A stretch of 39,386 bases of DNA from K189A clade bacterium. GTDB lineage: Bacteria; Pseudomonadota; Gammaproteobacteria; Pseudomonadales; Azotimanducaceae. Both the position numbers and the translations under genes were made by a program. Positions 8,677 to 11,727 of the stretch are shown piece by piece. Location: the NCBI GenBank assembly GCA_018607725.1, contig JABBAY010000154.1:1-39386 (forward strand), in the 5' to 3' direction. Position 1 is the first letter of the stretch; the number at the start of each line of letters is the position of its first letter. A model generated the notes under the pieces. That model did not search any database. It was not told the DNA's origin and saw only the letters and a program-made list of their open reading frames with translations.

Positions 8677-8716
8677 GTATTTCTAAAAAACGGTTGTCCA
8701 CTGAGTTAATATACAG

Positions 8717-8736
8717 TACTGTACTGACATACAGTA
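8717..8736. promoter_or_regulatory. LexA (SOS) box
   Basis: TACTGT, eight bases, then ACAGTA: both outer arms of the gammaproteobacterial LexA operator (TACTG-(TA)5-CAGTA, as known from E. coli) are perfect, with correct 20-bp length. A second perfect palindrome TACAGTACTGTA (8712-8723) is nested over its left half. The site lies 50 bp upstream of the small ORF at 8786 and beyond the stop of the MBL gene. A control role over the small ORF is inferred from position. Confidence 0.8.
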
Positions 8737-8785
8737 TTAACCGGCATTGCACGGTCGACTTAACATCAGGTAGGGGCAGAGCATC

Positions 8786-8938
8786 ATGAAAATCAAACAT
8801 ATTCAGTCCATGGATCTCTGGCTGCTGACGAAAGGTGACAAGGTACTTTATCGAGGTAAGCGCAATCCTTGGAAGTCTCCTGGTATTATCGCCAGTGTGC
8901 TTCGAAGTGAAGGGAAGCTGTTCCGCTACTTTGGTTAG
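8786..8938 (+). CDS. predicted SOS-controlled 50-residue basic protein
   Basis: A 50-codon ORF with a strong ribosome site (AGGTAGGGG at 8768-8776, 9 bp before ATG). It begins MKIKHIQSMDLWLLTKGDKV and ends GKLFRYFG. It has eleven Lys/Arg against three acidic residues. The segment GDKVLYRGKRN..SPGII resembles the strand pattern of a small SH3/KOW-like barrel, but I do not recognise a family. The perfect-armed LexA box 50 bp upstream suggests induction by DNA damage. After the TAG the same frame stays open to 9253 and begins DGLPVQ. The ORF could thus be a shortened version of a longer protein, or that extension may be accidental because it runs into 20-bp and 14-bp repeats and opposes the next gene. 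Confidence 0.6.
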   Translation: MKIKHIQSMDLWLLTKGDKVLYRGKRNPWKSPGIIASVLRSEGKLFRYFG

Positions 8939-8951
8939 GATGGGTTGCCGG

Positions 8952-8991
8952 TGCAAGGCGCTGCCAGTAGCTGCAAGGCGCTGCCAGTAGC
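8952..8991. repeat. 20-bp perfect tandem duplication
   Basis: TGCAAGGCGCTGCCAGTAGC occurs twice back to back (8952-8971 and 8972-8991) with no mismatch. It follows directly after the small LexA-associated ORF. A partly symmetrical GCAGCAATA..TATTGCAGC hairpin comes next. Perfect identity suggests a recent slippage event. Confidence 0.95.
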
Positions 8992-10045: not shown

Positions 10046-10188
10046 ATAGTTAATTGACCCGGTCGAAAGTGCGTAGCCTACCAAAGCGGAGCCCAGATTT
10101 CCTGCGTTATTTGGCTGTATATATTGACAGTCAGACGGTAGACTCTAGAGGTTTCTCAAGGGATTGTCTCAGTCATGCGTCGTGCATC

Positions 10189-11727
10189 ATGGGTATAGAT
10201 AGTATTGTCACGATCGCTATCGTAGCGGGTTGTAGCATGTTGCTCACGGCGTTGCTGGCGTGGCTTTGGGCTCGTCTCAAAATGCAGCGTGAGCGCGATC
10301 AATGGGCCTCTGATGCCGGGGTTCAGCAGGCGCTGACACAAGTCAGTGTCGCTACCCATCAGCGGGATCGTGAAGATCTGATGCAACGACTGCAAGCTGT
10401 GCAACAACAGCTTGCAGATCGCTCAGTGACGTTAGAGCGTGCGTTGATCAGTGAGGCCGGGTTGAAGTCTCAAGTCGAGCAACTTCAACAGCAAACTCTT
10501 GGCCTGGAAGGGCGACTGACGGCGGGGGCTCGGGAAACCGATCAATTACGAGCTGACAACGCCAGCCACCGGGAAAAAGTCAGTCATCTGCAAACAACGC
10601 TGCTAGAACAACAAAAACAAAATGAGGAGAAGTTGGCTCTACTGCATCAAGCGCGAGAAAGTCTCAACGCCGAGTTCAAAAACTTGGCCAATGAAATTTT
10701 TGATGCCAAGCAAAAGAGTTTCAAGGAACAGAATCAGATGCAGATGGATGGCTTGCTCAAGCCACTCGGGGAGAAGATCAAGGATTTTGAAAAACGGGTC
10801 GAGGAGACCTATGACAGAGAGAGCAAAGAACGATTCTCACTGGCCAAGGAAGTCCGTGATCTACAGACTTTGAATGTTCGAATCAGCCAGGATGCAGTCA
10901 ACCTCACGAATGCCCTTAAGGGTGAAAACAAGACCCAGGGTACCTGGGGCGAGGTTATTCTTGAACGGGTACTGGAAAAATCTGGGCTTGAAAAGGGTCG
11001 CGAGTATGAGGTTCAGGTCAATTTAAAAAATGAACAGGGGCAGCGCTTTCAGCCCGACGTGGTGGTGCACTTACCGGAAGGTAAGGACGTTATTATTGAC
11101 TCTAAGGTCTCGCTGGTGGGCTATGAACGTTATTGTAGTGCAGAGCCAGGGTCACAACAGCAGGAGGCTTTAAAGGCGCATATTCAGTCCTTACGCCAAC
11201 ATGTCAAACAGCTCAGCGAGAAGGATTATCAGAACCTTGAAAATGTTCGAACGCTGGATTTCGTTTTGTTGTTCGTGCCGGTAGAGGCGGCGTTTACGCT
11301 GGCGGTTCAGCAAGACAATGAAATATTTTCTAATGCCTTTGATAAAAATATTGTTCTGGTCGCACCTTCGACGCTGCTGGCAACGCTGCGGACTATTCAA
11401 AACATTTGGCGTTATGAACAACAAAATAAGAACGCGCAGGAGATCGCTGGCAAAGCCGGGGCGTTGTATGACAAATTTGTTAATTTCGTCACTGACCTGG
11501 AGGATATCGGCGGTAAGCTCGATTCGGTGCAGGCGGTTTATGCCAAGGCGCACAATAAATTAATATCGGGTAAAGGCAATCTGGTGACTCGCGCTGAAAA
11601 CATGCGTGAACTTGGCGCGCGAGTGACCAAAAGCTTGCCCGTCAGTCTGGTTGAGTTGGCCTCTCAGGAGCAGGCGATCCAGATCAGCAAGAGTGCTGTG
11701 CGCAGAATTGAAAATGATAAAAGTTAA
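10189..11727 (+). CDS. rmuC: DNA recombination protein RmuC
   Basis: 512 residues from ATG 10189; an upstream ATG at 10054 would place 45 non-hydrophobic residues before the membrane anchor and overlap the start of the divergent gene. One N-terminal transmembrane segment (SIVTIAIVAGCSMLLTALLA) is followed by a long Gln-rich coiled coil to about residue 175. The nuclease-like RmuC core comes next, with LKGENKTQGTWGEVILERVLE, FQPDVVVHLPEGKDVIIDSKVSL and LLFVPVEAAF. RmuC limits inversions and other rearrangements at repeats in E. coli, which is notable in a window full of small tandem repeats. TTGACA at 10124-10129 may be its -35 element, though no good -10 accompanies it. Confidence 0.93.
   Translation: MGIDSIVTIAIVAGCSMLLTALLAWLWARLKMQRERDQWASDAGVQQALTQVSVATHQRDREDLMQRLQAVQQQLADRSVTLERALISEAGLKSQVEQLQQQTLGLEGRLTAGARETDQLRADNASHREKVSHLQTTLLEQQKQNEEKLALLHQARESLNAEFKNLANEIFDAKQKSFKEQNQMQMDGLLKPLGEKIKDFEKRVEETYDRESKERFSLAKEVRDLQTLNVRISQDAVNLTNALKGENKTQGTWGEVILERVLEKSGLEKGREYEVQVNLKNEQGQRFQPDVVVHLPEGKDVIIDSKVSLVGYERYCSAEPGSQQQEALKAHIQSLRQHVKQLSEKDYQNLENVRTLDFVLLFVPVEAAFTLAVQQDNEIFSNAFDKNIVLVAPSTLLATLRTIQNIWRYEQQNKNAQEIAGKAGALYDKFVNFVTDLEDIGGKLDSVQAVYAKAHNKLISGKGNLVTRAENMRELGARVTKSLPVSLVELASQEQAIQISKSAVRRIENDKS

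Follow-up and report, generated by a model that had tools for sequence, protein, structure and literature searches.

A conserved 50-codon gene downstream of tandem LexA boxes in a clade of uncultured bacteria

A small ORF between an MBL-fold hydrolase gene and cnoX

The window, by which we mean the whole stretch of 39,386 nucleotides that was analyzed, carries a 50-codon ORF preceded by a Shine-Dalgarno-like sequence and two LexA boxes, with the SOS gene rmuC nearby (Table 1). The canonical gene order is bamC, an MBL-fold hydrolase gene, the small ORF, cnoX (ybbN), and rmuC. The idea that the ORF stands where purC would be expected derives from the known gene order of Pseudomonas; the genes found 3′ of it in this clade are cnoX/ybbN and rmuC. 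cnoX is inverted in the window and at loci L005, L010, and L020, and the MBL-fold hydrolase gene was not seen after bamC at L027 and L068. Immediately 3′ of the small ORF, at 8952 to 8991, lie two head-to-tail 20-bp units (TGCAAGGCGCTGCCAGTAGC); a short stem-loop whose tail is AT rich comes next.

Table 1. Features of the small-ORF locus and of the neighboring rmuC gene, in window coordinates
Feature	Position	Strand	Basis or remark
Putative −35 hexamer, TTGTCC	8694-8699	+	17 bp 5′ of TACTGT; TTG equidistant in tandem-box relatives
LexA box 1, degenerate, CTGAgttaatatACAG	8701-8716	+	One mismatch; within the −35/−10 spacer
LexA box 2, TACTGT-ACTGACAT-ACAGTA, written TACTGTactgacatACAGTA	8717-8736	+	Arms exact; conserved in relatives
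Shine-Dalgarno-like AGGTAGGGGC	8768-8777	+	Sequence
Small ORF, 50 aa, basic, predicted β-β-β-α	8786-8938	+	Conserved homologs, purifying selection, AlphaFold2
LexA box 5′ of rmuC, CTGTatatattgACAG	10115-10130	+	Exact; neighboring SOS gene, positive control
rmuC	10189-11727	+	Pfam RmuC, E 5e-108; likely ATG at 10189, mechanical ORF start at 10054

The original prediction that this ORF is a gene depended on the frame being kept in sister genomes and on selection that was not neutral. Both proved to be the case. The frame was recovered by tblastn and by a profile search of the family, and between the window (locus L001) and its close relative L004, 12 codons carried silent changes and 2 carried replacements (dN, 0.017; dS, 0.54), a dN/dS of ~0.03. 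Third-position changes were in excess in every close pair of homologs. In genome G004 the 153-bp ORF was identical to that of the window, while 47 of 780 bases differed in the upstream gene and 13 of 109 in the intergenic region. With its frame kept and its changes concentrated at silent sites, the ORF at 8786 to 8938 is, judged by its sequence, a real protein-coding gene.

Tandem LexA boxes at the promoter

It had been claimed that the LexA box has exact, correctly spaced TACTGT and ACAGTA arms, that a second palindrome overlaps its left half, and that a ribosome site and a 50-codon basic ORF follow within 50 bp. The arms at 8717 to 8736 are as described. The palindrome, TACAGTACTGTA (8711 to 8722), is real and is explained as the junction, ACAG-TA-CTGT, of two boxes: box 1 is offset from box 2 by 18 bp and, degenerate in the window, is exact in several relatives (L004, L010, L020, L022, L023, and L028). 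The ATG lies 49 bp 3′ of box 2, behind AGGTAGGGGC, and the encoded protein is indeed basic, with a pI of 10.5 and a net charge of ~+7.6 (homologs, pI 10 to 12). The TACTGT of box 2 can double as a −10 hexamer, and in the promoter alignment this CTGT-N8-ACAG box overlaps the promoter. Exact CTGT-N8-ACAG sequences occur twice in the window, each time at a promoter, once before the small ORF and once before rmuC.

Among 40 homologous loci, which share ancestry and are therefore not independent events, 27 had an intergenic exact CTGT-N8-ACAG (0.11 loci expected from shuffles), 39 had a box with at most one mismatch, and 31 had two boxes 17 to 19 bp apart. The sole locus without a box was L063, for which we did not see the upstream gene. 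Joint absence and the constant layout weigh as much as these locus counts. For 25 sampled genomes, the MBL locus was read and lacked the ORF; the 700 bp 3′ of the MBL gene held no exact box in any of them. As had been proposed, ORF and LexA box are conserved jointly, and both are absent together in the sampled genera. When the relatives were aligned on box 2, they shared a TTG 17 bp 5′ of TACTGT, with a column consensus of CTTGA-N..-TACTGTAT, so that box 1 occupies the −35/−10 spacer and box 2 starts at the putative −10. To judge from this layout, the tandem boxes should allow tight shut-off by LexA.

The genome encodes a standard LexA, and its own lexA promoter has two exact boxes of the same type, 19 bp apart. 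Genome-wide, CTGTAT-N6-ACAG was found 14 times, against once for the reversed control (strands counted separately). Since rmuC is an established SOS gene with a box of its own, it provides a local positive control: it was upregulated 19.7-fold with mitomycin C in Vibrio cholerae (PMC5963079), it is induced as an SOS gene in Escherichia coli (PMC11002266), and about half of the relatives have a LexA box at its promoter. The rmuC box is of the same kind as that of the small ORF, but rmuC has its own promoter and its protein is unrelated to the small-ORF product.

Direct repression by LexA, with release upon DNA damage, is very probably the only reading that fits the small-ORF promoter. By analogy with established LexA biology, LexA dimers bound to the two abutting boxes in undamaged cells would block the σ70 promoter, covering the −35/−10 spacer together with the −10 and start region. 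DNA damage would then lead to RecA-stimulated cleavage of LexA, the promoter would become accessible, and the product would be a soluble, strongly basic protein of 50 residues with a β-β-β-α fold. Alternatively, the boxes might serve a regulatory RNA or a 5′ leader, the ORF being incidental, as could be read from the promoter-to-ATG distance, which ranges from 35 to ~500 bp across the homologous loci; but the length of such a leader is not conserved, and the strong protein-level conservation and silent-site excess make this explanation most improbable. We consider it highly likely that this small gene is genuine and that LexA controls it directly. Because a real gene has been kept together with two side-by-side LexA sites, we are almost certain that its product is a small, new component of the clade's DNA damage (SOS) response.

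Distribution and inheritance of the gene

By tblastn, each of the six genomes in the genus contained the small ORF, as did further genera of the family. A profile search found the protein encoded in 59 of the 207 genomes of the GTDB family, 7 of the 59 holding divergent members (genera g35 and g26). Homologs were 46 to 64 aa long, and the start codon was ATG in nearly all of them. Wherever the contig was long enough, canonical members lay 3′ of the MBL gene and 5′ of cnoX/ybbN, with rmuC as the next downstream neighbor in most. On a tree of the MBL proteins, the ORF-bearing genomes formed one cluster, with 3 state changes versus 19 when labels were shuffled; L100 to L102, which fall inside this cluster, seem to have lost the small ORF.

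Outside the family, 392 genomes at the order level and 369 at the class level yielded no genuine homolog. Phage, plasmid, and IMG/VR viral collections also yielded no homolog, and we rejected an origin from a mobile element on this ground. We think it highly probable that the gene is vertically inherited in one clade of uncultured, largely marine bacteria. Those relatives that carry names are MAGs labeled Pseudomonadales or Gammaproteobacteria, with one labeled OM182 clade; OM182 is placed in the GTDB family Pseudohongiellaceae. Among the papers searched, none named OM182 or Pseudohongiella along with SOS or LexA.

The divergent g35 and g26 homologs (L126 and L138 to L143) lie in other gene contexts and have no exact CTGT-N8-ACAG box, and LexA control is therefore dispensable for the protein family. 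It follows that the protein may predate its LexA control or that the control may have been lost in g35 and g26. In place of a LexA box, the stretch 5′ of the start codon in most g35 members contains a TATATT-like −10 together with an inverted repeat, GGAC...GTCC.

The protein and its possible role

The core motif of the family is W-x-L-[ST]-x-G-x3-L-Y-R-G-x2-[NS]-P-W-x-[ST]. Residues H5, S8, W12, G17, L21, Y22, G24, P28, and L39 are invariant in canonical members, W12, L21, Y22, G24, and P28 are also kept in divergent members, and W29 is near-invariant. AlphaFold2 models of two different members (mean pLDDT, 82 and 88) placed strands at residues 2 to 6, 11 to 16, and 19 to 24 and a helix at residues 32 to 41, a compact β-β-β-α fold that is confidently predicted. 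Three members have 10 to 14 extra residues after the first strand, the indels sitting in the turn between strands 1 and 2. The small protein contains no hydrophobic stretch of 15 or more residues.

The original prediction matched the ORF with no recognized small SOS protein, and our comparisons agreed. The protein had no significant match in Pfam, NCBIfam, PHROGs, or PADLOC, and structure searches of the PDB and BFVD returned nothing at an E of ≤0.001. A Pfam hit to SH3_TNRC18 (E 0.066) was under its cutoff and was not repeated in homologs. Like YebG (PF07130) of E. coli and Vibrio, the protein is small, LexA-controlled as we read its promoter, and without an enzymatic domain, and in V. cholerae YebG carries an annotation as a double-stranded-DNA-binding SOS regulon protein (PMC5963079). 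YebG has 96 aa, however, and shows no sequence similarity to the small protein. We discarded this identity, there being no Pfam match, an hhalign value of 0.6%, and no BLASTP alignment; none of the 207 genomes of the family had PF07130.

The best PDB sequence match of the small protein was LptC (E 0.15). Thirty residues are 47% identical to Pseudomonas-type LptC, with an hhalign probability of 93%, and a different family of the order gave LptC matches with a per-genome E of ~2e-4. It is nevertheless scarcely credible that the ORF descends from LptC as a relic or mimics it. Corrected for how many genomes were searched, the match is marginal, no LptC match at an E of ≤0.001 was found in the 207 genomes of its own family, and the small protein has no signal or membrane segment, its C-terminal half being a helix without an LptC counterpart. 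We rejected the relationship as chance or convergence. The LptC of the other family (L127 to L131, L134, and L135) shares K-x-E-H-I-K-A-S-D-I-T-L-L...L-Y-R-G...P-W-H with the small protein family.

Our leading guess, a tentative one, is that the protein is a small nucleic acid- or nucleoprotein-binding modulator of the SOS response, favored because of its charge and its sheet-plus-helix fold. Nucleic acid binding is suggested by the charge and by a loose likeness of the predicted structure to small DNA-binding folds made of a sheet and a helix. Folds of the AP2 and integrase-arm type also combine a three-stranded sheet with a C-terminal helix and are basic, and the AP2 structure 3igm, together with AP2/ERF or HNH phage proteins, was among the nonsignificant structural matches, but no structural or sequence match to such a fold was significant (Foldseek E >1 in the PDB). 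A modulator of this sort would act like the small accessory SOS proteins while belonging to none of the families compared.

About equally likely, and just as tentative, is that the protein binds not nucleic acid but one partner enzyme (RmuC, RecA, a polymerase, or a protease adaptor) and modulates it, for which DinI, a modulator of RecA, is the model. The invariant W12, L21-Y22, G24, and P28 and the near-invariant W29 could form a binding surface. The lasting neighborhood with LexA-boxed rmuC would suit such a partnership but fits simple vertical inheritance equally well.

The protein might instead be the clade's LexA-induced SOS cell division inhibitor, blocking septation as a stand-in for SulA, SidA, or SosA/YneA. 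These too are lineage-specific small LexA-controlled proteins, but no homology to the small protein was detected. SulA is larger and has another fold. SidA and SosA/YneA are membrane anchored, whereas the small protein, a predicted sheet plus helix, has neither an N-terminal membrane segment of their type nor any other hydrophobic segment. Many lineages do have unrelated small LexA-controlled division inhibitors, among them SidA in Caulobacter and SosA in Staphylococcus aureus (PMC4211646 and PMC6851548). The small ORF had no Pfam match to SulA (PF03846) at the gathering score, and the window's own genome likewise had no PF03846 match. The PF03846 matches within the family are frames of mostly 250 to 300 aa, probably ImuA, so that a true absence of SulA is unproven and the pattern of presence and absence is uninformative; we dropped the argument from complementarity with SulA for this reason. 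Nothing ties the small ORF to division, and another LexA-boxed protein of the same genome is an at least equally good candidate, and we regard a role as division inhibitor as unlikely. Less likely still is that a new lineage-restricted fold family forms the clade's SOS checkpoint effector, a division or replication inhibitor whose evolution was independent of that of SulA and other known inhibitors.

As a small LexA-controlled protein, whatever it binds, the ORF product would add to the SOS regulon a family that matches nothing in four family libraries, and it indicates that LexA box conservation can pick out genuine genes of ~50 codons in uncultured bacteria. The homolog set, predicted fold, and promoter architecture are ready for a direct test.

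A second small lineage-restricted LexA-boxed protein adjoins clpA (L032:3-314, minus strand; G000:C2), with homologs at L187 to L197. It has two exact boxes 26 bp apart, and several relatives have a 25- to 26-bp tandem that is exact or has one mismatch. Its core reads HSxLAMxAAxxM..RQKxKTGRxVCHHLLxML, and it has no Pfam match. In most of the homologs, a C-terminal hexapeptide similar to Q[FY]SLxF looks like the binding motif for DnaN, the sliding clamp; the copy in the window's genome runs off its contig, and its own C terminus was not seen. Together with this second protein, the small ORF suggests that SOS effector content varies between lineages more than model organisms show. A 110-aa ORF with no family above its cutoff (L045:753-1082, minus strand; G000:C204) looks rich in coiled coil and lies 40 bp 3′ of a perfect palindromic box, TACTGTATTAATATACAGTA.
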